Assembly: GCA_020429395.1 (NCBI GenBank)
Contig: JAGQLL010000012.1
Span: forward strand, 1-37,588
Direction: 5' to 3'
DNA length: 37,588 nucleotides
DNA from: Candidatus Dojkabacteria bacterium
GTDB lineage: Bacteria > Patescibacteriota > Dojkabacteria > B142 > OLB20
Below, piece by piece: positions 1-20,375 of this stretch. The first letter of the stretch is position 1, and each line of letters begins with the position of its first letter. The notes beneath the pieces were generated by a model that saw only the letters and a list, made by a program, of their open reading frames with translations, made no database searches and was not told the origin of the DNA. Both the position numbers and the translations under genes were made by a program.

Positions 1-2490
1 ATGTTAGAAGGTGGTGGCTTCACAAACGACACAACACCTACACTAAATTTCACTCTATCTGCACCGGACACGGGTACACCACTTTCGTATAACCTGCAAA
101 TCCTCAAAGACGCTGTGCTAATTATTGACTATTCTTCAGAAGAAGATATCCAAGGTATTAGGAATTTCACGGTAGGTCAAGCTTCTGGATTAGGTACTTA
201 CAACAATGGTTATGGTTCTGAAAGTCAAACATTACAAGAAGGAGAGTACACTTGGAGAGTTATGGCTACGGGTTCAAGTGGTGATAGTTCGTGGGTAGAC
301 GCAAACAATGGTAACGTAGCTTTTACTATCGACACTCAGAGTCCAACTGAAGGTTCTGTTTTATACACAGATGGTTACTATACCCTCGCTTCCGTTCCAC
401 TGGTGTTAGATGATGGATTAGATCCAGCTGGTATCAATACTTCTACTAGATTAATAGAAAGAAGCAGTGCTACCCTGACATCAGATGTGTGTTCAACTTT
501 TGGGACTTTTGAGGAAATAACCCCAACTGGTACTTATCCAAATCTTATAGATAATTCCGTAACTTCAGCTAATTGTTATCAATACAGATACACTGTTTCT
601 GATAATGCGACAAATGAAGTGACCTACACATCTGCGAACATTGCCAAAATCGCTGTAGATGCTCCTCCTGCACCAGGTGTCCCACAAAGTGAAACTCCCA
701 CATTCACTCTTGTACAGGAATGGGTTTGGGATGCAGCAGTTGATACCGTGTCTGGCATAGCTCAGTATGTTTGGAGAGTGGTTGACGAATTCGACAATAC
801 AGTAGATAGCGGAGTTTCAGCCACATTAAATGCAACAACTAATCTGGGAGTCGGAGTATACACTTTCTTTGTCAGCGCATTAAACAATGCGGGTCTTCTA
901 AGTGACGAGAGTTTTGCAAACATTACAATAGAACCAACTCCAACTAACACACCTAATCCCACACCAACAGAAACGCCAGTTCCAACTGCAACTAATACTC
1001 CTATACCAACAAGTACGAACACACCAGTTCCGGCTCCTACATCTACACCAGTTCCAACAGCAACAAACACTCCGATTCCTACCTCGACAAATATACCAGT
1101 TCCGACAACTATCCCTACTCTCGCTCCAACTAGCGCACTTGTTATAAATCCAACGCTAACACCTACTTTGGTGACGGCTATCCCGAGCACTACTCCAATA
1201 TTTGTATCAGATACTTTGACACCGACCGATATTGTTCTCACACAAACACCAACAACAAATCCTGAAGAATTTCTCGACAGTCCCACACCTACAACAAACA
1301 CTTCTGATTCAAATGACGGAGGGTTCTTTAGTGATTTTTCACCCAAAAATTCGTATGCAATGCCTGAAGAATCAGTTGTAAATCATCCAATAGTAAAATC
1401 AGTTGCAAAAAGTATTACAACTAGGTTAAATCAGCTATCTATCGACTCCTCTCCTCTAGTTCCAATTGTAGAAACACCATTAATTGTGGCAGAGGCGATT
1501 AAGCCAATTACAGACAATGTAAATTATTTCATGTCACTTAGATTTGTAGGTGAGAATACAGCCTTAGCCGGAATCTCTACTACAAACTTATTGGCTTACG
1601 TAGCTCCAGCCATTGTAACTGCCATATCTCAACCTAGGATTTTGTTCCATGCGCTAACCTGGTTCTGGAAAAGAAAATCAAAACAACCTTGGGGTATTGT
1701 TTTTGATAAAAGCACTGGCGCACCTGTCGCTTTTGCCAGAATAATTCTTACCCAAGAAGGCAACACTGTATCTACGCAAACTACAGATCTTCAGGGTAAA
1801 TATGGTTTTTCGGCTAATAAAGGGAAATATCAACTCTACATATCACATTCAGATTATTTAGATTTTGTCTCTGATATCGAAGTAGGATATGATGGGGAAA
1901 TTATCTCCAAAGATTTCGAAGTTTCCGCCAAATCACGAGATGATGTCAATTCTGGTATTAGATGGATATTTTATAGACTAAAAAAACAAATTGCTAAAAA
2001 CCTATTCATACTAAACACCACTTTGTTCTCTATTGGATTTGTTTATACTTTATTCGCCATTACGAACCACCTTACTGTTATAAACTACGTAATTCTTTCA
2101 CTCTACATATTCCAATTCATACTTATGTTCGTATTCTACTTCTTTAAAGACAAAGAATCTGGACAAGTTATAGATATCGCATCTGGGCTACCGGTCTCTG
2201 GGGCAATTGTTCGAATATTTGATGAAGAAAGACAGATTGATATAGCCATAACTGATGCCCAGGGCAGGTATTCTTTCATATTGGAGCCTAATACTTATTT
2301 CATCAAAGCTTCAGCTAATGGATATGTGTTCCCTTCTGATGATAAACCAAACATTGTACGGGACAAATTAGGCGGAAAATTGCTTAAATTTACAATACAA
2401 GACAAGCAAAGAGTTAACATTAAAATATATTTAAGAAGATTTGCATCATTAAACGCAAATAACCAAGCCATTTTGTCTCCATTTAGCTAG
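1..2490 (+). CDS. Giant surface protein, 5' partial: Ig-like repeats, Pro/Thr stalk, membrane-anchored C-terminal module
   Basis: The frame is open from base 1 and the first residues read like the middle of an Ig-like/fibronectin-type repeat, so the true start lies upstream of the window. Residues 1-310 are beta-rich extracellular repeats. Residues 312-440 are a Pro/Thr-rich stalk of repeated TNTP/PTPT units. A motif FSPKNSYAMPEE follows at about 447, then a hydrophobic stretch (about 520-545), a first carboxypeptidase-regulatory-like beta domain (about 564-640), two membrane helices (about 667-715) and a second such domain (about 721-800). It ends in AILSPFS. The same C-terminal module of about 380 residues closes the next gene, so the two are tandem paralogues. 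Likely a cell-surface adhesin or stalk protein; the ligand is unknown. The last two beta domains may face the cytoplasm, depending on the number of membrane passes. Confidence 0.8.
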   Translation: MLEGGGFTNDTTPTLNFTLSAPDTGTPLSYNLQILKDAVLIIDYSSEEDIQGIRNFTVGQASGLGTYNNGYGSESQTLQEGEYTWRVMATGSSGDSSWVDANNGNVAFTIDTQSPTEGSVLYTDGYYTLASVPLVLDDGLDPAGINTSTRLIERSSATLTSDVCSTFGTFEEITPTGTYPNLIDNSVTSANCYQYRYTVSDNATNEVTYTSANIAKIAVDAPPAPGVPQSETPTFTLVQEWVWDAAVDTVSGIAQYVWRVVDEFDNTVDSGVSATLNATTNLGVGVYTFFVSALNNAGLLSDESFANITIEPTPTNTPNPTPTETPVPTATNTPIPTSTNTPVPAPTSTPVPTATNTPIPTSTNIPVPTTIPTLAPTSALVINPTLTPTLVTAIPSTTPIFVSDTLTPTDIVLTQTPTTNPEEFLDSPTPTTNTSDSNDGGFFSDFSPKNSYAMPEESVVNHPIVKSVAKSITTRLNQLSIDSSPLVPIVETPLIVAEAIKPITDNVNYFMSLRFVGENTALAGISTTNLLAYVAPAIVTAISQPRILFHALTWFWKRKSKQPWGIVFDKSTGAPVAFARIILTQEGNTVSTQTTDLQGKYGFSANKGKYQLYISHSDYLDFVSDIEVGYDGEIISKDFEVSAKSRDDVNSGIRWIFYRLKKQIAKNLFILNTTLFSIGFVYTLFAITNHLTVINYVILSLYIFQFILMFVFYFFKDKESGQVIDIASGLPVSGAIVRIFDEERQIDIAITDAQGRYSFILEPNTYFIKASANGYVFPSDDKPNIVRDKLGGKLLKFTIQDKQRVNIKIYLRRFASLNANNQAILSPFS

Positions 2491-2551
2491 TCTCTGCTTT
2501 CGCTAATAGTCGTTTTAGTCTATGATATTAGAGTATGTATACATAAACTAG

Positions 2552-5500
2552 ATGACTAATAAAATCGTCCTAATTGACGACAATTTTGCTATACGGCAAG
2601 TAATCAAGATATTTCTGACGCGTTTATCGCGTAATAATTCCTTTGATATAAACATTTTTTCAACCGATAACGGTGTTGAAGGACTTGGTTATGTATACAT
2701 TACAAATCCCAACATAGTTATAGTAGACACAACTCTACCTAAATATTCAGGGAGGGAAGTTTTGGACTACTTCGTACAAAACCCTAAGTTTCAAGAAAGT
2801 GGTATAAACGTAATAGTTCTTCATGAAGAGAAGGAATCGGATCTTAAACTTCCAAGTAATTTTCATATAATTAGTAAGAACCAAAAAGGTTCGTTCAGTT
2901 TGATATCGAAGACCATTGACGAAATTTTTAAAACTTCTGAATCAGGGAACTCCCGAAAACTAATTGATAAAATCGGTAATTTTATTCTTATCAACGGTAA
3001 TAAAGATGATTTATTAAACAAAGGACTTACTGGTAAAGCACTTTTTAATTCACTGTTCAACAGATTAAAATGGATCTGGTTAGAGTTCACAAGTAGTATA
3101 GCGTTGACATTATTACTATTACTCTATGGTAAACCAACCGACGAAAATATTACTCAACAAGATTTAGATAAAAAAGCATTTCGTTCCAAATACTACCCTA
3201 CTCTTGCCGTAACATTTATCTCTTCAATAATAATATTAATTAATTTCGGATTATTTGTAGGCTCCCAACTTCCCTTGTTTCGCAACCAACAGCAAGGGAC
3301 GACAGCACTTTCTACATTTGTTGTAGATAGCATAACAGACTCAAGTGATTTCCTAGTGGGTGATGGGTATTGTGACACGGACGATTCAATAGGAGATGGA
3401 CCTTGTACACTCAGAGCTGCAATAGAAGAGGCAAATTCTATTGCGGGAGTTGATTATGTTGATTTTAATATATCGGGAACTGGACCTTTTACCATCAACC
3501 TCACTCAAAACTTACCACAAATAATATCACCTATAATCATTGATGGAACTTCCCAAAGCACTTCATCTTGTGGTGATTGGGCTCTTCAAGTTGAAATCAA
3601 TGGTGGCAATTTATATGAAGGTTTTTCTCTAAATTCAGGAGCTGGAGATAGTGTAATACAAGGTTTAGTGATGAACGGAATGCTAAATCACTCGATCTTT
3701 GCAGAAGGTATAAGTAATCTGGAAATTCTATGCAATGTCTTTGATTTCGAACCTGATGGTACAACTTCAATTCCATCCGACTCGAGGGCTATTCATTTGC
3801 AGAATTCCATTGGCAATATCACTATAGGTGATACTACAACAGGCGGAAATCTAATAGGCTCGAGGCTGGACAAAAGAAGTATAGAAATATTACAAACTAC
3901 AACCTCGTCCTCTCCTGTCATTGATATTGAAAACAACTACATCGGAGTTGAAAAATCCGGACAAAATGCCCCAGAGAATCTAAGTGGACTTTCTCATGTA
4001 TACATAAGTGGCGATGATATTAATTCTTCATATCCCGTCGTCAATTTTGGTGGAGCAAATACTTTATTACAAGATGAGTGTTCAGGATCTTGTAACATTG
4101 TCGCTTGTAGTACAGGCGAAACACCATCCATATTTCTCTCCAAGACCGGAACAAGTACCATACGAGGGAACAACTTGGGAGTCAAAAAAACTGGAACTTC
4201 ATCACTCACCTACCTTGGTACTACTTCTTGTATTAATAATGCTCCAGGTTCAAGTGGAGTCGAAATAACACAACCAAAAGGCAATGTCCTTATTGGAGGG
4301 ATTCTTACTTCTCAAAGAAACATTATTGCAGGATTTGGTTATCACGGATTAATATATGACGATCCTGATGCTGCTGTTTCCTTAATTATCAATAATAATA
4401 TATTTGGAACCGATATAGATGCTACGGAAAGTTTGGGCAATGCAGGAAGTAATATATTTTTTCTCGATGGAGTGTCTACCATTGAAAACAATATTATATC
4501 CGGAGTTACTTTACTTGGAGATGTGGATGCGGCTGGTCTAATAATATCTACAGAAAACACTAATTCTTCTATCGAAGTTTTCGGGAATTACATCGGGACA
4601 AATACTTCACTAATAACAAATTTAGGTAATCGAGACGCAGGAATATTAGTTGATAGTGGCAGTGTGGGCAGTATAAATATTGGAAAAATAGACGAAATTC
4701 CAAACTATATAAAATATAATCAGTACTTTGGTATCACGATTGATCAATCTAACTCAGCTGTTAATATTATAAATAACATTATCGAAGAAAATATCGGGCA
4801 CGGGATATACTTTTATAGATCTAACGAAACTTCAGACACGAGTATCATTAGTAACAACATTATAAAAAATACCAAAGGATTAAATAATATTAACTCCTTT
4901 GGACATGGTTTTGCTTCATATACTAGTAATAATATTACACTTTCAGACAATCTTTTCTGTCATGATGATCCTGATGCCCAAAATTTCGATTATCCAAGTG
5001 CAGTGTTCATGGAAAATGGTAATACTGGAATTCTTTTTGATGGCAATTCTATCCAAAGTCAATATACTTCGGGATTTGTCGTACCCTGGAGTGATACTGG
5101 CATAAGCATAATCAATAGCAATTTCCACACGTCTCCACAACCAGGAGTTGATTTAGGATTAGATCCGACTCTTGGAATTTATCCAGGTACCACAGCAAAT
5201 GATGCAGGAGATAATGACCTTGGACCGAACAATTTCCAAAACTATCCCGAAATCACATCCGTCAATGACGAAACTATCAACTACAGTTTAGATACACTCG
5301 CTGGCGATTATTTAGTAGAATTTCATATTCCAAATGAGGACCCAGTCTGCGGTCAGGGTAGTAGCCTAGTTTGCACAACTACAATCACACATACTGGTAG
5401 TGGTACTCAAGATTTCTCACTTAACTGCCCTGCACTTCCCTCTAGACCTTACGATTTAGCAGCAATAACCACAAAAGTTTTAGGGGTTGACCAATACGGA

Positions 5501-6940
5501 GACACGTCAGAACTTAGTCCAATCACCACAGTAACTAACCCCACACCGACACCCACAGCGACGTCAGTACCAGCACCAACTACAATTATTCCTACCAACA
5601 CATCTACACCATTACTACCGACAAATGCACCCAGCAATCCCAACCCTACGACAATTCAAAATACTGTTACACCTACAACGATTTCATCGTCTCCTACAGT
5701 ACTTGCCACTACCACCCCTACTTTGATATTCACGCCAACACAAGACGTTACTCCTACTCAGGTTTCAACAGGATTCTTTGATGATTTTTCGCCAGGTAGC
5801 TCATATGCGTTGCCCGAAAGTTCATTACTTAATCATCCTGTCGTTAAATCTAAGTTTATGGATATTGTAGATTTCATAAAAACAAATCTTGATCCAACAA
5901 CAATCTCAGGAAAATTTCTCGACGTTGGCATTATAATTACTGATTTTACCAATCCAATTTATGACAGTATAAATTATTTACTATCACTACAATTCATAGG
6001 AGAACAGATAGCGATAACAAGCGTAACCGCTATCAATGTATTTGCCCTGGCCACACCTTTAATTTTGACATTCATCTCTGAACCACACATATTTTATTTC
6101 GCCTTCTTTTGGATTTGGAAAAAGAACAAACCACCAACATGGGGAGTTGTATTAGATAAAGTTACTAAAATGCCCGTAGCTTTTGCAAGAATAATTTTAA
6201 CCCAAGATGGTAAAACAATAAATACATACACAACTGACCTTCAAGGCAGATATGGACTTGATGCGAAAAAGGGCATTTATAAGGTATTTGTAATGCATTC
6301 CGAATACATTGACGAGTCTAGAGAAATTGTAGTAAAAAACGACGGGGAAATCCTGGTACTTGATTTTCAAATGAATCCAAGATTCCATGATGAGCTCCAA
6401 AAAAGCTTTAAATGGTGGCTTTATTCTTCAAAGATTTTTCTTAGAAAAAACCTATTCGTTTTAAACACAATAGTTTTCTCCGCTGGATTTGTATATACAT
6501 TGTTCGCAATCACAAATTCCTTCTCGGTAATAAATTACGCGATCTTGATGCTTTATATCATTCAAATTCTTATGATAATAATCTTTAATGCCATGAAAGA
6601 GAAGAATCTAGGACAAGTCATCGATATAAACTCTAATGAACCAGTGAAAGGTGCTGTCGTACGACTCTTCGACGAAACAAAACAAATTGATGTCACCATT
6701 ACAGATAATGAAGGACGCTACTCATTTATTGTAGATCCTGGAACTTATTATATAAAAGTGAATGGTGATGGATTTAAATTCCCTTTCAAGGATGACTCAA
6801 ATATTGTTGTAAATAGTGTCGGAGATAAATTACTGAAATTCACAACACAAGACTCACAAAAGATTTCTCTAAAACTTTACGTGCAAGGATATTTAAATAT
6901 GGCCATTAGAAAGAATGAAATACTTTCACCATTCACTTAA
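2552..6940 (+). CDS. Giant protein: receiver-like domain, membrane segments, CSLREA/beta-helix ectodomain, stalk, C-terminal anchor module
   Basis: 1462 residues. Residues 1-125 look like a response-regulator receiver domain: acidic pair D9/D10, phospho-acceptor D59 in IVIVDTTLPKYSG, and K109, but L90/H91 where Thr/Ser is usual. Two hydrophobic segments follow (about 178-196 and 217-240). A CSLREA-like motif (GPCTLRAAIEEAN, about 283) opens a long right-handed parallel beta-helix (to about 850) rich in NNI/GN turns. A Thr/Pro stalk (about 997-1065) leads to FSPGSSYALPES and the same C-terminal module as the preceding gene (two carboxypeptidase-regulatory-like domains around paired membrane helices). 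It starts 61 bp after the upstream paralogue, with no clear Shine-Dalgarno, and its stop overlaps the convergent cysS stop. Two hydrophobic segments between receiver and beta-helix make topology ambiguous: for the receiver to be inside and the helix outside, one must not cross. Function is unknown. Confidence 0.85.
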   Translation: MTNKIVLIDDNFAIRQVIKIFLTRLSRNNSFDINIFSTDNGVEGLGYVYITNPNIVIVDTTLPKYSGREVLDYFVQNPKFQESGINVIVLHEEKESDLKLPSNFHIISKNQKGSFSLISKTIDEIFKTSESGNSRKLIDKIGNFILINGNKDDLLNKGLTGKALFNSLFNRLKWIWLEFTSSIALTLLLLLYGKPTDENITQQDLDKKAFRSKYYPTLAVTFISSIIILINFGLFVGSQLPLFRNQQQGTTALSTFVVDSITDSSDFLVGDGYCDTDDSIGDGPCTLRAAIEEANSIAGVDYVDFNISGTGPFTINLTQNLPQIISPIIIDGTSQSTSSCGDWALQVEINGGNLYEGFSLNSGAGDSVIQGLVMNGMLNHSIFAEGISNLEILCNVFDFEPDGTTSIPSDSRAIHLQNSIGNITIGDTTTGGNLIGSRLDKRSIEILQTTTSSSPVIDIENNYIGVEKSGQNAPENLSGLSHVYISGDDINSSYPVVNFGGANTLLQDECSGSCNIVACSTGETPSIFLSKTGTSTIRGNNLGVKKTGTSSLTYLGTTSCINNAPGSSGVEITQPKGNVLIGGILTSQRNIIAGFGYHGLIYDDPDAAVSLIINNNIFGTDIDATESLGNAGSNIFFLDGVSTIENNIISGVTLLGDVDAAGLIISTENTNSSIEVFGNYIGTNTSLITNLGNRDAGILVDSGSVGSINIGKIDEIPNYIKYNQYFGITIDQSNSAVNIINNIIEENIGHGIYFYRSNETSDTSIISNNIIKNTKGLNNINSFGHGFASYTSNNITLSDNLFCHDDPDAQNFDYPSAVFMENGNTGILFDGNSIQSQYTSGFVVPWSDTGISIINSNFHTSPQPGVDLGLDPTLGIYPGTTANDAGDNDLGPNNFQNYPEITSVNDETINYSLDTLAGDYLVEFHIPNEDPVCGQGSSLVCTTTITHTGSGTQDFSLNCPALPSRPYDLAAITTKVLGVDQYGDTSELSPITTVTNPTPTPTATSVPAPTTIIPTNTSTPLLPTNAPSNPNPTTIQNTVTPTTISSSPTVLATTTPTLIFTPTQDVTPTQVSTGFFDDFSPGSSYALPESSLLNHPVVKSKFMDIVDFIKTNLDPTTISGKFLDVGIIITDFTNPIYDSINYLLSLQFIGEQIAITSVTAINVFALATPLILTFISEPHIFYFAFFWIWKKNKPPTWGVVLDKVTKMPVAFARIILTQDGKTINTYTTDLQGRYGLDAKKGIYKVFVMHSEYIDESREIVVKNDGEILVLDFQMNPRFHDELQKSFKWWLYSSKIFLRKNLFVLNTIVFSAGFVYTLFAITNSFSVINYAILMLYIIQILMIIIFNAMKEKNLGQVIDINSNEPVKGAVVRLFDETKQIDVTITDNEGRYSFIVDPGTYYIKVNGDGFKFPFKDDSNIVVNSVGDKLLKFTTQDSQKISLKLYVQGYLNMAIRKNEILSPFT

Positions 6941-10636: not shown

Positions 10637-11476
10637 ATGTATATAGCAATTGATGTTGGCGGAACGAAAACCGCTTTTGCAAAAATTGACAAACTAGACA
10701 AACCTACCATAAGTGGTAAAGAAACTATCTCAACGCCCCAAACCTATGATGAGGCTATCGTTAAAATCTACAGTCAAATTGAAAAGTTTAGTAAGTGGCA
10801 AAAAGTAGAAGGTATTTCCATAGCGCTACCTGGAAGCGTTAGTAATGAAAAGATTGAGCTTCTCACAAACCTGCCTGATTGGAATCACAAACCCCTTCTA
10901 GAGGATGTATCGAAGAAGTTTAAAACAAAAGTGATTATGAGAAATGATGCTGTTGCAACTGCACGAGCCGAGAGGTATTTCGGACTTGCGAAAAACGAAA
11001 ACAGGTATTTATATTGCATTATCGGGACAGGATTTGGTGCTACTTACGTTCACAGAGTTGGTGATAAATTTTTGGAACTGCCTCTAGAGCCAGAGTACAT
11101 GATCGTAAATTCACACGGCACGCATAGAAACCATTTTCACACACCAGGACTGCTTGGAGCATATGCAACCGGAGCTGTAATACAAGAAAAAACGGGGATA
11201 CATTCACTAGCAAGCCTTGAAGATAGTGACCCGATTTGGGACGAGATGGTACAATACCTTGGAATTGGTTTGAATAACCTTATCACACTCTTTAAACCAC
11301 CTGTAATTATTTTCTCGGGTGGTATAATAGTGCACAGAAAATTCTTATTAAAATTATTACGCATGGAACTAGCTAAATATGTAGAATACTTGCCTCAGCC
11401 AAATCTTAAAATAACAGAATTTGGTGATGACGCAAGTCTTTATGGAGCTATTTCATTGCTTTACGAATTACAATAA
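10637..11476 (+). CDS. ROK-family sugar kinase (glucokinase-like), zinc motif altered
   Basis: 279 residues of the ROK fold. The phosphate-binding loop AIDVGGTKTAFAKI is at 4-17, catalytic D104 in MRNDAVATAR, and the second phosphate motif IIGTGFGA is at 128-135. Family members phosphorylate glucose, ManNAc, GlcNAc and related sugars or act as transcriptional repressors. There is no DNA-binding domain here, so a kinase is likely. The usual zinc signature (His, then CxCGxxGCxE) is replaced by HGTHRNHFHTPGLLGAYATG (160-179). The first His is kept, the cysteines are gone and extra histidines appear. Its stop overlaps the valS start (TAATG), which suggests translational coupling. Confidence 0.85.
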   Translation: MYIAIDVGGTKTAFAKIDKLDKPTISGKETISTPQTYDEAIVKIYSQIEKFSKWQKVEGISIALPGSVSNEKIELLTNLPDWNHKPLLEDVSKKFKTKVIMRNDAVATARAERYFGLAKNENRYLYCIIGTGFGATYVHRVGDKFLELPLEPEYMIVNSHGTHRNHFHTPGLLGAYATGAVIQEKTGIHSLASLEDSDPIWDEMVQYLGIGLNNLITLFKPPVIIFSGGIIVHRKFLLKLLRMELAKYVEYLPQPNLKITEFGDDASLYGAISLLYELQ

Positions 11477-14400
11477 TGCTTCCCAAAGGACCATATCAAC
11501 CACAATCGACCGAGGAAGAGATTTTAGCTTTTTGGCTAGAGAATAATTTCTATTCACCTGAATACAAATCTGAGAAAAAATTATCAACTAGCAACCAACC
11601 TGATAGAGAGACTTTTTCAATAGTTCTCCCACCACCAAATGCAAATGGTAATCTTCACCTTGGCCATATGTCAGGATATGCATACCAAGACTTGATGGGT
11701 AGATACAATCGGATGAAAGGCAAAAAAGTTTTACTCTTGCCTGGCAAAGACCATGCCGGTATTTTGACCGAGGTAGTTTTTGAAAAAGAACTTGAAAAAG
11801 AAGGCTTATCCAAAAAAGCTTTAGGGAGAGAAGAATTTTATAAACGTTGTTATGATTTCTGTATTAAGAACTCCGAGAATGCTCGAAGGCAGGAAAAAAA
11901 TATCGGTTTATCTGCAGATTTCGATAGAGAATTATTCACACTTGAGCCGAAAATCGTTGACGAGGTATTAAAAGCTTTCGAGTTAATGTATGAGGACAAA
12001 CTCGTCTACCGTGATAAAAGAATTATAAATTGGTGTCCTAGATGTCAGTCTGCTCTTGCCGATATCGATACTGAGTTCAAAGACTCGCAGTCCCCTTTTT
12101 ATTATTTTAAATATGCTTTCACTGAACCCGAAACTGATGCTATTAGATTAAAAAACGAATTTAACGGAAAAGTTATAGAATGGGATTTTGAAAGAAATTC
12201 AACAAAAGAAGGATCAGACAGATTGCCTTTTTCTTTTGGTAACTATCAAAATTTTGAAATAATTGGCATCGGATATGGCGATGAGCAAAAAGGCAAACTT
12301 TCAGGTAAAGTGATTGGTATTCAAATGAGACTGGATAAAAATTTCAGATTAGTAGTTTTAAATCAGGAGACAGAAATCGATATTAAGCATGAGTTAGATA
12401 AAATTTTCCTTTTTGAAATACAACACTATGCAGGTGCACATATAATTCTATTTGATGAATATAGCGAGGATCGGTTCTACACAAATGGCTTTATTTTAGG
12501 AACCGTTCGACCCGAAACCAAATTTGGTGATACTGCACTCGCAGTTGATCCAGACGATAAAAGATATAAAGAGTTTGTTGGAAAAGAGTTTGAAGTTAGG
12601 ACATTACTTGGTACATCTAAAATAAACGTTATATCCGATAACGCTGTCGATGAAAGTTTCGGAACAGGCATGGTTAAAGTCACTCCAGCACATTCTCCAG
12701 AAGATTGGGACATAGCAAAACGTCATCCAGACGAGGCATTCCCTGAGAAGCAAGTGATAGACTTCAACGGTAAAATGAATCACTTAGCCGGTAAATATCA
12801 AGGTTTGTCTGTAAAAGAAGCACGTAAAGCGATGCTAGAGGATATGAAATCAGCAGGAATGCTTGTTTACTTGGACGAAAATTATACAAATAGAATTAGA
12901 ATTTGTGAAAGGTGCAAATACCCAATAGAACCGCTCATTTCTTATCAATGGTTTGTCGACACAGAACCATTAAAGAGTGAAGCAAAAAGACTTGTTGAGG
13001 AAGGATTTACCGACATCATGCCAGAAGGTAAAAAGAAAACCTATATGCAATGGATGGAAAGTAAAGAAGACTGGTGCATCACCAGACAACTTTGGTGGGG
13101 TTATCGAGTTCCAGTCTGGTACAAGGGTGAACACTCACAGTACATCACCGAAACTGGTGAAGTGAAAGAAAAAATCGGAGATAAAATTATAAATAATCCA
13201 GAAGATTATAATGGTCTAATCTATGTTGGACATGATAATCCCAACAGCCGGAAGACTTACTTTATCCCTGGTAAACATGGTTATATGTCTCGGAAAATAT
13301 TTCCTGAAATTGCAGAAAAGTATCCGAATACAATTACAGTACAAGTTGAGAACATTGATGAACCATCTCAAGAGGACTATGCCAATGGTCTCAAAGACTA
13401 TGATTTAAAGAATTCAGTTATCATTGCACATTCGATGGGTTGTCCTGCCATTATTAATTATATCTCTGAAAATAATACTCCAATTGAAAAACTGGTATTA
13501 ATTGCACCAAAATTAATTTTTAAAGAAAAAGATAGAGCCAAGAGATACACTAAAATGCTCGAAGATTTGAGACTTGATAAACTTGAGACTTTGGTAAAGG
13601 AATTAGTGATAATTTATTCTGATAATGACGAGCATGTGACTCTAGAGGATATAAGCGAATCAATTAAAAAACAATTACCATATGCCAAGTATGTTTTACA
13701 AAAAGATGCAGATCATTTTGCAACTCCAGAACTTGATATATTCCCGGAATATTTATGGGAAGTAATTAAGGATAATGGAAACCAACTAAATATCTCCGTT
13801 CTCCGACATGGAGAGACCGAGTACAACAAACTAGGTAAATTCCATGGAATAACTGACATTGAACTAAACGAGACTGGACGAGAACAAGCTCACGAAGCAA
13901 AGGAAAAACTCGGAGCACATTATGATGTGATAATAAGCTCCCCGTTAAAAAGAGCGAGGCAAACCGCGGAAATTGTTAATGAGAAACTCGGTTTGAAAAT
14001 CATAGAAAACGATTTACTCAAAGAAAGAGATTTCGGCAACTTGGAAGGTCTAACATGGGAAGAATTTTCCGAGCAATACCCTAATGAAGCATCAAAAAAT
14101 CATATAGATTTCCAACCGGAACTTGAAAAAGGAGAACGAATTGAAGACGTTGAGAAAAGATTAAGGGAATTTATTAACTGGCTCAAAACTTCAGGCTATA
14201 AAAATCCTTTAATAGTCACACATGCAGGCGTAATCAGAGTTATTGAAAGAAAATTAAATAATCTGACTCCAGAACAATCACGAGAGAATGATCCAAAAAA
14301 TCTAGAACTAAGAAACTATAAACTTAGCGCAGCCGAATGGGTACAAGATGAAGATGTGCTTGATACTTGGTTTTCATCCGGACAATGGCCATACTTAACA

Positions 14401-15231
14401 TTGATGGTTAAGGAAGGTGATTTTAACGAATTCTACCCTTCCCAAGTTATGGAAACTGGTTGGGACATTTTATTATTCTGGGTAACCAGAATGATGTTAC
14501 TTAATCCTTATAGAGCCAAGAAATTAAATCCAAAAAGAACTGATGAACAAATCGTTCCATTCAAAAGTGTATATCTTCATGGCTTGGTTCTAGATAAAAA
14601 TGGTATCAAGATGAGTAAATCGAAAGGAAATGGAATAGATCCTTTTGAAATGATGCAAAAATATGGGACAGATGCTTTGAGATATAGTTTTATTAAAGGT
14701 AATTCAGCTGGGCAAAATTATCGTCTATATGAAGAAAAAGTTTCCTCCAATCGTAATTTCTGCAATAAAATCTGGAACGCATCAAAATTCGTACTTTTCA
14801 ATATTGAAGATTGTGGAGAAAAGTTGATCAACACAAATCAGACTGAGCTAAATTTTACTCAGGAAGATAAAGATATGCTGGAACAAATCGACAAACTTGC
14901 TGTTGAAACAACAAGAAGATTAGACGAATTTAAATTCGGAATCGCAGCAGATGAACTTTATGAGTCATTCTGGCATTATTTCGCCGATGTTTACCTGGAA
15001 AAAATTAAAACAAGGCTTTACACAAAAGATCGTGATGGAAACGCGATAAACACTTCTGAAGAAGAAATGAAATCAAGATTTAGTGCTCAATGGTTAATTC
15101 TATATTCCCTTGAGACATATCTTAAACTGCTACATCCTTTCATTCCGTTTCTCACCGAGAAAATCTGGCAGTCATTACCCAAAAGAGAAGAAGAGTCGGA
15201 ATCAATAATGTATAGTGAATGGCCTGTATAA
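11476..15231 (+). CDS. valS: Valyl-tRNA synthetase with inserted serine-hydrolase and histidine-phosphatase domains
   Basis: 1251 residues, against roughly 860-950 for a usual ValRS. Class I signatures are intact: HLGH at 61-64 (after PPPNANGN) and KMSKS at 1045-1049. The zinc-like pair WCPRC (186-190), GTVRPETKFGDTA (342-354), the CP1 editing segment GTGMVKVTPAHSPEDW (396-411), RQLWWGYRVPVWY (537-549) and DVLDTWFSSGQWP (960-972) are all ValRS motifs. Between WWG..P.WY and DVLDTWFSS a usual enzyme has about 50 residues. Here there are about 410, holding an alpha/beta hydrolase and a histidine phosphatase (separate entries). A further insertion of about 115 residues precedes TVRPET. In the editing site, the position equivalent to T. 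thermophilus D276 is S407, whereas K270, T272 and D279 are kept (K401, T403, D410). The protein ends just after the anticodon-binding domain, without the C-terminal coiled coil. The frame is intact throughout. Confidence 0.95.
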   Translation: MLPKGPYQPQSTEEEILAFWLENNFYSPEYKSEKKLSTSNQPDRETFSIVLPPPNANGNLHLGHMSGYAYQDLMGRYNRMKGKKVLLLPGKDHAGILTEVVFEKELEKEGLSKKALGREEFYKRCYDFCIKNSENARRQEKNIGLSADFDRELFTLEPKIVDEVLKAFELMYEDKLVYRDKRIINWCPRCQSALADIDTEFKDSQSPFYYFKYAFTEPETDAIRLKNEFNGKVIEWDFERNSTKEGSDRLPFSFGNYQNFEIIGIGYGDEQKGKLSGKVIGIQMRLDKNFRLVVLNQETEIDIKHELDKIFLFEIQHYAGAHIILFDEYSEDRFYTNGFILGTVRPETKFGDTALAVDPDDKRYKEFVGKEFEVRTLLGTSKINVISDNAVDESFGTGMVKVTPAHSPEDWDIAKRHPDEAFPEKQVIDFNGKMNHLAGKYQGLSVKEARKAMLEDMKSAGMLVYLDENYTNRIRICERCKYPIEPLISYQWFVDTEPLKSEAKRLVEEGFTDIMPEGKKKTYMQWMESKEDWCITRQLWWGYRVPVWYKGEHSQYITETGEVKEKIGDKIINNPEDYNGLIYVGHDNPNSRKTYFIPGKHGYMSRKIFPEIAEKYPNTITVQVENIDEPSQEDYANGLKDYDLKNSVIIAHSMGCPAIINYISENNTPIEKLVLIAPKLIFKEKDRAKRYTKMLEDLRLDKLETLVKELVIIYSDNDEHVTLEDISESIKKQLPYAKYVLQKDADHFATPELDIFPEYLWEVIKDNGNQLNISVLRHGETEYNKLGKFHGITDIELNETGREQAHEAKEKLGAHYDVIISSPLKRARQTAEIVNEKLGLKIIENDLLKERDFGNLEGLTWEEFSEQYPNEASKNHIDFQPELEKGERIEDVEKRLREFINWLKTSGYKNPLIVTHAGVIRVIERKLNNLTPEQSRENDPKNLELRNYKLSAAEWVQDEDVLDTWFSSGQWPYLTLMVKEGDFNEFYPSQVMETGWDILLFWVTRMMLLNPYRAKKLNPKRTDEQIVPFKSVYLHGLVLDKNGIKMSKSKGNGIDPFEMMQKYGTDALRYSFIKGNSAGQNYRLYEEKVSSNRNFCNKIWNASKFVLFNIEDCGEKLINTNQTELNFTQEDKDMLEQIDKLAVETTRRLDEFKFGIAADELYESFWHYFADVYLEKIKTRLYTKDRDGNAINTSEEEMKSRFSAQWLILYSLETYLKLLHPFIPFLTEKIWQSLPKREEESESIMYSEWPV
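12127..12471 (+). other. Unrecognised ~115-residue insertion in the ValRS editing-domain region
   Basis: ValRS residues about 218-332. A usual ValRS passes from the YYIKYPL strand to the TTRPETMLGDTAV strand within about 10-15 residues. Here a charged, beta-rich segment intervenes, with FEIIGIGYGDEQKGKLSGKV, an LRLVVLN-type strand and FEIQHYAGAHIILFDEY. I recognise no family in it. It sits where CP1 leaves the catalytic core, so it could sit next to the editing site or the tRNA CCA end. Confidence 0.7.
13243..13773 (+). other. RBBP9-like alpha/beta serine hydrolase domain inserted in ValRS
   Basis: ValRS residues about 590-766. The domain begins KTYFIPGKHGYMSRKIFPEI, with an RBBP9/YdeN-style opening strand and loop. 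The nucleophile elbow is AHSMGC with S653, and the following helix is PAIINYISENN. The strand LVLIAPKL follows, then YSDNDEHV with D718 as the likely acid and KDADHF with H747 as the likely base. All three triad residues are present, so the domain is probably active. The RBBP9/DUF1234 family comprises small serine hydrolases whose natural substrates are mostly unknown. Confidence 0.85.
13789..14280 (+). other. Histidine phosphatase (phosphoglycerate-mutase-like) domain inserted in ValRS
   Basis: ValRS residues about 772-935. The signature LRHGETEYN gives R777 and the phospho-acceptor H778. SSPLKRARQTAE (821-832) gives the second arginine R828. LLKERDFGNLEG supplies the acid E850 and VTHAGVIR supplies the second histidine H916. 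The full catalytic set (two Arg, two His, Glu) is conserved, so a working phosphatase is expected. Members hydrolyse many phosphomonoesters; the substrate cannot be read from the sequence. The domain returns directly to the ValRS motif DVLDTWFSS about 25 residues later. Confidence 0.92.
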
Positions 15232-18936: not shown

Positions 18937-19422
18937 TCACTCTTTTGCCTTCTTTTTAATATTTGTATTAAAGACAACTTCAACGGTTGCTAATAGTACA
19001 CCTGTTATCATAATAGTATACCACTCCAATGCGCCCATCAGTCGCAGACCAGCGAAGGCGAAAATCAAGAAGTACAGCATTATACCTCTCCGGATTGCAG
19101 GCCTAAGCCTTGGGGACTCCAATATGCTTCTGAAGAATAATTTATCAATAAAAAGGTGTATTGAGGTAAAAAGAGAAATCACGAAACCAGCCATAATCAA
19201 TATCCATGCAGTCAAAATTTCGGCATCCAAGAACTCCCATACAATCCCGAGTTCAATACTCCTTTTTATGACTTCAAGAAGTTCTTCTTCTTCGGTAATT
19301 CCATACCTTTGGATAATATTGTTTAATCCATCATTTTCAAATGGAGAATAATTAGCACTAATAAACAGTAATAATGCCCCAAAGAAAATCGCAATCAGTA
19401 GGGAGAGCAGACCCCTTCGCAT
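18937..19422 (-). CDS. Small integral membrane protein, unknown
   Basis: 161 residues. A signal-like N-terminal helix (about 5-22) is followed by an extracytoplasmic acidic segment (about 25-65), a helix (about 68-90), a basic loop, two more helices (about 108-128 and 133-150) and a Lys-rich tail KKKAKE. I recognise no family. It lies 14 bp downstream of the permuted DsbA-like gene on the same strand, so the two are probably co-transcribed. A role beside it, for example in electron supply, is possible, but no cysteine pair is present, which argues against a DsbB/VKOR-type partner. Confidence 0.75.
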   Translation of the reverse strand: MRRGLLSLLIAIFFGALLLFISANYSPFENDGLNNIIQRYGITEEEELLEVIKRSIELGIVWEFLDAEILTAWILIMAGFVISLFTSIHLFIDKLFFRSILESPRLRPAIRRGIMLYFLIFAFAGLRLMGALEWYTIMITGVLLATVEVVFNTNIKKKAKE

Positions 19423-19436
19423 TTTATGAGTATGTT

Positions 19437-20375
19437 TTAGTTAATTTCAAATAGTTTGTCGTGATACTCGAAATATTTCCCTTGATCGCCTGCACATCTA
19501 GCAGCATTTGATGCGAAACGAGCATTTGGATGAATGCTCTCAAGAGGAAAATCACGATAAATATATCTTGCTTTACCTGTATCTACAAATTTTTCTTTTG
19601 CTTCAACCAAAATATCATTTGCAAAACTTTGACAGTATGGACACTCATAATCACTAAATTCCATCATAACAATCTCTCCATCCCCTTGTGTAAGACCATC
19701 GCCAACACTAAGTTTCTGAACGACATATTCCGTATTTACGTTGGTTGTTTGTTCGTTAATATATGTTGTAACCGCTGAATCAAGAGCTTCACCTGTAAGC
19801 GCACCTCCTTCTGCTGATGCATAGTACTCACGAACCTGTGGTTCATACTCTTTCAAGCTATTTTTTAAGTAATCAGTCCAGTACTTATTCACCGATGCAA
19901 TATCTTCGCTTTCAAGTTTTCCAACAAGTGTTTCCAATTCTTGCACACGAATACCACCTACATAGAAGCCATCGAATTCGTCTCCCTTTCCTTTTCCTAT
20001 GTAAAATGATGGTGTTCCCTGTACTCCGTATGTCTCACCAGCTGATAATTCTTTGTCTATTACGTCAAAATATTTTTCTCCTTCAACACATTCTTGGAAT
20101 TTTTCTAAATCCAAATCCAAACTTTGTGCATATTGATCATAACAAGCATCTCCAAAACGGTTCTCTCCGGTACATTCTCCCGCTACTTCTGCTGTAGTTT
20201 CTCCGTCGTCCTTAGAGTCTAGGGAAATACCATTCCCAGAGAAAAAAATCACGATGGAAATCAAAACACCTCCTAATAAAATACTACCTGCATTAATTAG
20301 CACTTTTGAACTGGCGGGCTTTTTATTTTTTTTTGGAGTTTTTACAACTGCTGATTCTATCTTTTCTTTTGCCAT
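19437..20375 (-). CDS. Membrane-anchored DsbA-like thioredoxin-fold protein with circularly permuted halves
   Basis: 312 residues. A basic N-terminus and one membrane helix (about 25-46) precede an extracytoplasmic domain. Residues 76-153 match the C-terminal half of a DsbA/Thioredoxin_4 domain: YAQSLDLDLEKFQECVEGEKY, then GVQGTPSFYIGKG with the cis-Pro loop (117-129) and FYVGGIRVQELETLV. After a helical linker (about 154-215), residues 217-312 match the N-terminal half: IVMMEFSDYECPYCQSF with active-site CPYC (245-248), YRDFPLESIHPNA, AARCAGDQGKYFEYHDKLFE. The protein stops exactly where the usual domain would continue into YA..LGLD. Nothing downstream of the stop encodes the missing half, so the order is inverted. 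Further cysteines are C68, C78, C96 and C294. Probable role: disulfide formation in surface proteins. Confidence 0.85.
   Translation of the reverse strand: MAKEKIESAVVKTPKKNKKPASSKVLINAGSILLGGVLISIVIFFSGNGISLDSKDDGETTAEVAGECTGENRFGDACYDQYAQSLDLDLEKFQECVEGEKYFDVIDKELSAGETYGVQGTPSFYIGKGKGDEFDGFYVGGIRVQELETLVGKLESEDIASVNKYWTDYLKNSLKEYEPQVREYYASAEGGALTGEALDSAVTTYINEQTTNVNTEYVVQKLSVGDGLTQGDGEIVMMEFSDYECPYCQSFANDILVEAKEKFVDTGKARYIYRDFPLESIHPNARFASNAARCAGDQGKYFEYHDKLFEIN

Follow-up and report, generated by a model that had tools for sequence, protein, structure and literature searches.

A natural circularly permuted, membrane-anchored DsbA-like protein in Candidatus Dojkabacteria, with permuted relatives across Patescibacteria

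The 37,588-nt window (the whole stretch of DNA analyzed here) carries a Candidatus Dojkabacteria gene for a DsbA-like protein in which the C-terminal half of the catalytic domain precedes the N-terminal half. The reversed order, its conservation, a confident fold resembling that of engineered permuted DsbA (1UN2), the retention of key residues, and the position of the break, in a loop that can be cut in E. coli DsbA, are shown or strongly supported. Very probably the protein acts outside the cytoplasm as a membrane-anchored thiol-disulfide oxidoreductase of the DsbA/Thioredoxin_4 kind, with a single circularly permuted catalytic domain, its activity being inferred.

The open reading frame (19437..20375, minus strand, stop included) encodes 312 amino acids from ATG to stop. 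In Pfam, positions 15 to 88 of the Thioredoxin_4 profile (PF13462) match residues 235 to 310 (E = 5e-24) and positions 124 to 188 of the DSBA profile (PF01323) match residues 78 to 149 (E = 5e-11), with both halves exceeding the family cut-offs (85.8 versus 23.2 bits and 43.2 versus 25.6 bits). The solved structure 7UNN also aligns in reversed pieces, chain residues 84 to 161 with residues 232 to 311 of the query and chain residues 176 to 226 with residues 79 to 128. These alignments bear out the preliminary description, which had placed the C-terminal half of a DsbA domain before the N-terminal half, and each motif named there is present in the order given: YAQSLDLDLEKFQ from residue 82, GVQGTPSFYIG with the cis-Pro P122, CPYC at residues 245 to 248, and YRDFPLESIHPNARFASNAA. 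Its claim that the downstream DNA holds no continuation likewise stood, as 14 bases after the stop codon (19437-19439) an unrelated gene, encoding a 161-aa membrane protein, begins with its ATG (19422). The canonical half order expected of a DsbA-like family member is thus not met, and because the halves are reversed we refer to the protein as a permuted DsbA and not as a normal DsbA-like or Thioredoxin_4 member.

All features of the protein lie on the minus strand. The anchor helix that the preliminary description had put at the new N-terminus corresponds to hydrophobic residues ~25 to 45 (20241..20303) after a Lys-rich start; it rests on the sequence and on an aligned hydrophobic stretch in every ortholog, model confidence being low here. 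The C-terminal half of the fold (residues 79 to 156; 19908..20141), delimited by the DSBA profile and the model, is predicted to consist of helices 76-85, 90-98, and 103-115, strands 123-130 and 133-138, and a closing helix 144-156, with the cis-Pro loop (GTPS; P122 at 20010..20012) at the strands; it also bears the structural cysteine C96 (20088..20090). Residues 157 to 219 (19719..19907), previously described as a helical linker of about 60 residues, were modeled as a two-helix hairpin (helices 159-186 and 195-216, pLDDT of ~95 in the 30-row model described below) leading from the old C-terminus to the old N-terminus. The N-terminal half (residues 220 to 312; 19440..19718), supported by the Thioredoxin_4 match and the model, comprises predicted strands 220-223, 228-230, and 235-241, helix 246-264, strand 269-275, and helices 285-296 and 301-308. 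Its catalytic CPYC (19632..19643) stands between strand 235-241 and helix 246-264, so that, as in the family, a CxxC opens helix 1 and the cis-Pro is in the opposite half, with C245, C248, and P122 all invariant among the orthologs. C294 (19494..19496), the partner of C96, is also in this half and is likewise invariant.

AlphaFold2 supplied with the five orthologs alone returned a model with a pLDDT of 68.5 and a pTM of 0.61. With a 30-row alignment, in which normal relatives were added to the orthologs with their N-half and C-half on separate rows, these values rose to 85.3 and 0.78, and residues 65 to 312 were confident, mostly above 90. The contacts between the halves in that model rest on five full-length rows and the network; adding further trimmed C-half pieces (A6) degraded the alignment, and that version was left out. 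The order of elements was identical in both models. In Foldseek searches of 350,542 PDB chains, 1UN2 ranked 7th with the first model and 1st with the second, matching over 237 and 239 columns with a TM score of 0.50 by target length, whereas unpermuted DsbAs covered ~86 columns of the model, one half only. No match reached an E value of 0.001, and the rmsd to 1UN2 was large (10 to 11 Å), which we attribute to the extra hairpin and to the low-identity placement of the halves in the model. The preliminary description would have been refuted by a model of two separate truncated, unpaired domains; this was ruled out, as the model is one domain and its best PDB match is 1UN2. A thioredoxin fold with inserted helices is therefore present, in the predicted structure only. 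In an alignment with DsbA of E. coli MG1655, the new C-terminus corresponds to mature residue ~96 and the core of the C-half starts at 108, so the natural break (E. coli residues 96 to 108) brackets the T99/Q100 site of the engineered protein. The halves are swapped and yet appear to form a normal DsbA shape, as far as a model can indicate; pairing between two molecules is not excluded.

We asked of a natural permutant that its order be conserved in independent genomes and that unpermuted homologs exist with the fold preserved. Both points are met, preservation of the fold by the model and Foldseek. Full-length orthologs with the same order were found in four further genomes of Candidatus Dojkabacteria/WS6, namely, G001 (JAJTYI; 79% identity), G002 (JAGQLK; 41%), G007 (JAFGMG; 30%), and G004 (JYNZ; 27%). 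These and the window's protein, together designated type A, share six invariant cysteines (C68, C78, C96, C245, C248, and C294). Where the locus extends far enough, each type A gene is followed by a gene for a 160- to 185-aa membrane protein and then by a MetRS gene (inferred from sequence, without a Pfam run), and an AP-endonuclease-like gene precedes it except in G004. The search of relatives proposed earlier thus recovered the same order in four genomes, and the type A locus yielded no unpermuted ancestor, which was also sought: the position is vacant in both G006 and G008, where the endonuclease-like gene is directly followed by the membrane protein gene, and no DsbA gene lies upstream of the membrane protein gene in G003 and G005.

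The following gene in the window (18937..19422, minus strand), encoding the 161-aa membrane protein, is a conserved neighbor: it adjoins every type A gene, was kept in 10/10 genomes of the order, has MetRS as its neighbor in most, and also occurs in genomes without the permuted gene. It was considered as a redox partner and rejected, as it has no cysteines and no Pfam match and exists where the permuted gene does not; as far as is known, it is not part of the enzyme. Elsewhere in the window, positions 11476-15231 (plus strand) encode a 1,251-aa valyl-tRNA synthetase-like protein with a Ser_hydrolase domain (residues 596 to 733) and a histidine phosphatase domain (residues 775 to 956) both inserted into the class I synthetase domain. 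Positions 1-6940 (plus strand) encode two large proteins with Thr/Pro-rich linkers, the first with carboxypeptidase-regulatory-like domains and the second similar to it C-terminally.

Across Patescibacteria, which are bacteria with tiny genomes, 40 permuted DsbAs were read out. A class-wide search with three permuted queries and half-domain profiles gave 68 proteins, 17 permuted (in 13 of 86 genomes) and 51 normal, and a permuted-order profile run across the phylum added 23 permuted proteins from 23 genomes, each confirmed on reading. Since loci were picked by their best match to permuted queries, the counts of permuted and normal proteins are not frequencies. Every permuted protein with a complete N-terminus has the architecture anchor, C-half, N-half. 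The linker between the halves varies from 5 to 79 residues (5 to 45 outside type A), and the long helical hairpin occurs only in type A. The break is shifted onward by one helix in L207, L212, and L223, where the new C-terminus bears the start of the next helix (e.g., LTSYKKAATELGLK). The permuted DsbA gene of another Patescibacteria family (L206, 1219-2208) is immediately preceded by a glutaredoxin gene. Among the best 80 relatives from a contig search, only four Dojkabacteria proteins had the C-N order; the rest were N-C or Chloroflexi tandem proteins. In a small control with 28 named genomes from outside Patescibacteria, long multidomain tandem open reading frames were the sole source of permuted-order matches.

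The catalytic residues are retained regardless of order: none of the 39 permuted or 103 normal proteins lacks a catalytic cysteine or the cis-Pro, which is thus found in 142/142 of the large set. The structural cysteine pair, with one member in each half (the columns of C96 and C294), was complete in 116 of these 142 proteins, absent in 26, and one-sided in none. The same co-occurrence is seen when normal and permuted proteins are tested on their own (Fisher p = 1e-21 and 3e-7, values inflated by related sequences). As the pair is always either complete or missing, the two halves, whichever comes first, seem to be constrained as a single domain.

How often the order changed was inferred from trees in which the halves were set in canonical order. 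The class tree (67 proteins) required 8 order changes, at least 4 of them forced by well-supported (starred) branches, and a single origin was found in no bootstrap tree. The phylum tree (142 proteins) gave 17 changes (bootstrap range, 15 to 18), at least 8 of them forced, its bootstrap being not fully settled. These changes lump gains and losses, and any loss would amount to permuting the domain again. In a quick tree, the permuted L206 was sister to the normal L229 (SH-aLRT, 99). For two sister paralogs of type A, the neighborhood is informative as well: the N-half of type B permuted proteins is 67 to 62% identical to the normal L015, L014, and L012, and an Hsp20-like gene lies downstream both of type B permuted genes and of the normal L014 and L012; a 186-aa gene lies downstream of the type C permuted L018 and of the normal L019 and L016. 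Types B and C thus share their loci with unpermuted orthologs, and the order therefore changed in place. A fusion of halves from different paralogs was rejected, as in the recent cases (L042, L206, L018, L007, and L054) both halves point to the same normal relatives and one gene was therefore rearranged; the halves of type A give only weak, mixed relationship signals, because type A is old.

These trees bear directly on the alternative of a single ancient permutation that was propagated through paralogy, transfer, and gene conversion. The permuted label does cluster on the tree beyond chance, long branches exist, and a clade of L018 with the short f6 group was not rejected (p = 0.18). However, placing all permuted proteins of the class tree in one clade cost 202 log-likelihood units (p-AU = 3e-44), constrained clades of types A and B (p = 0.004) and of type B with L054 and L067 (p = 0.03) also fared badly, and the changes forced on the phylum tree, the sister pair L206/L229, the shared loci of types B and C, and the break displaced by one helix in three proteins all argue against it. 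We thus regard a single permutation with later spread as highly improbable; a single origin is rejected on the class tree, and the trees support several independent origins, their exact number being uncertain.

The remaining alternatives concern the protein itself. The window's genome is a fragmented metagenome-assembled genome of 109 contigs, which leaves formal room for an assembly error, frameshift, or pseudogene. However, a gene split in this way, which would have refuted the preliminary description, would not recur with the same order at the same locus in four other genomes, and the open frames in the independent JAJTYI, JAGQLK, JAFGMG, and JYNZ records and the strongly conserved catalytic residues make this explanation scarcely conceivable. 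It is improbable, though less readily dismissed, that the halves are exchanged between two chains, giving a domain-swapped dimer from a permuted chain and no permuted monomer: L018, L086, and L093 have only 5 to 8 profile-unaligned residues between the halves and could be strained, and the model covers one chain only. By its title, engineered 1UN2 keeps the global fold, and the old termini can therefore be joined; moreover, the structural cysteine pair co-occurs alike in permuted and normal proteins. A DsbA fold serving mainly as an isomerase, a reductase, or a carrier for special substrates, and not as a general thiol oxidase, is unlikely but deserves to be kept in mind, given that several DsbA-like paralogs per genome suggest specialization and that the active-site dipeptide varies in some permuted members (CNYC, CARC, and CIHC). 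Against it, CPYC or CPFC is found in 31/39 permuted proteins, and DsbB homologs are present in the order.

By structure, the closest known system is E. coli DsbA(Q100T99), a circular permutant obtained by engineering (1UN2; Manjasetty et al. 2004 and Hennecke et al. 1999, as cited in PMC2213659 and PMC12667903). The window's protein resembles it in the order of the halves and in the break (96 to 108 versus 99/100), and 1UN2 is the best structural match of the model, but 1UN2 was made in the laboratory from a soluble parent, whereas the protein described here is natural and membrane anchored, has a 63-residue hairpin, and is of Thioredoxin_4-type sequence. By sequence, Wolbachia alpha-DsbA1 (3F4R), Bacillus subtilis BdbD (3EU3), and Corynebacterium diphtheriae DsbA/TsdA (4PWO and 7UNN) are closest and share the CxxC and the cis-Pro, but they have the normal half order and each fits the model over one half only. 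The unpermuted anchored DsbAs of Patescibacteria (e.g., L014, L015, and L019) belong to the same family and share the N-terminal anchor, but not the order, and they occupy the loci orthologous to those of the two permuted paralogs. In PMC2213659, PMC3281007, PMC2395249, and PMC12667903, permuted DsbA is cited or mentioned as an engineered protein only, and PMC3091736 remarks in general terms, citing Qi and Grishin, that permuted members occur among thioredoxin-like folds. The literature searched, coverage of which was incomplete, contained no natural permuted DsbA, so that not found does not mean unknown.

With respect to origin, we hypothesize that the domain downstream of the anchor was duplicated in frame and that the leading N-half and the trailing C-half were then lost. 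Tandem DsbA proteins of Chloroflexi (N-C-N-C or N-C-N-C-N-C; L118, L119, L121, L122, L127, L134, L139, L160, and L161) contain the internal C-N succession, i.e., the type of intermediate that such a route needs; unlike the window's protein, they consist of complete domains and none is permuted. No tandem-duplication intermediate was seen among the Patescibacteria proteins read, tandem forms occurring only in other phyla. By analogy with VKOR and DsbB, for which natural circular permutation via gene duplication and deletion has been proposed (PMC4555120), and given that the tandem proteins make it plausible, duplication and truncation are the likely origin. VKOR and DsbB likewise form a disulfide-forming system, but they are four-helix membrane quinone reductases related by one ancient event, and they are not DsbA.

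In the chain as predicted, the anchor is followed by the old C-half with its cis-Pro loop, the helical hairpin, and the old N-half with its CPYC, and the usual CxxC/cis-Pro disulfide exchange would be kept, presumably outside the cytoplasmic membrane. As a direct topological consequence, the anchor enters at the helical cap instead of at the start of the first strand; because of this, the active-site face may be reoriented relative to the membrane and an inferred quinone-linked partner, although the functional meaning of this entry is a hypothesis. Genes for a DsbB/BdbC-like protein are present in G001, G004, G005, G007, and G008, genomes of the order that include the same genus, and none was detected in the genome to which the window belongs, which is 88.5% complete. 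Proteins of ~80 residues resembling VKOR, matching the first half of the family profile, occur in genomes with permuted DsbAs (G000:C2:225-428, L269; G001:C4:213894-214118, L270; and G007:C7:50789-50989, L267) and are possibly half-size VKORs or split genes. Our best reading is that recurrent duplication and truncation produced a functional thiol oxidase, now tethered via its helical cap, its activity being untested. Beyond this, we tentatively suggest, with not quite even confidence, that Patescibacteria permuted anchored DsbA ~8 to 17 times, always behind the anchor and within one stretch of the cap, because entry through the cap turns the active site toward a membrane partner or substrate.

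Permutation of DsbA has previously been known as a laboratory construct for folding studies, and nature uses the same break, repeatedly in one phylum. The finding is also a warning that domain annotations of Patescibacteria genomes conceal reversed domains. Permuted and unpermuted orthologs at one locus offer a direct view of how genes permute in place, and such same-locus pairs allow one to ask whether the new topology was selected, for re-tethering, or merely tolerated. These natural before-and-after pairs are available as a test of the re-tethering hypothesis.
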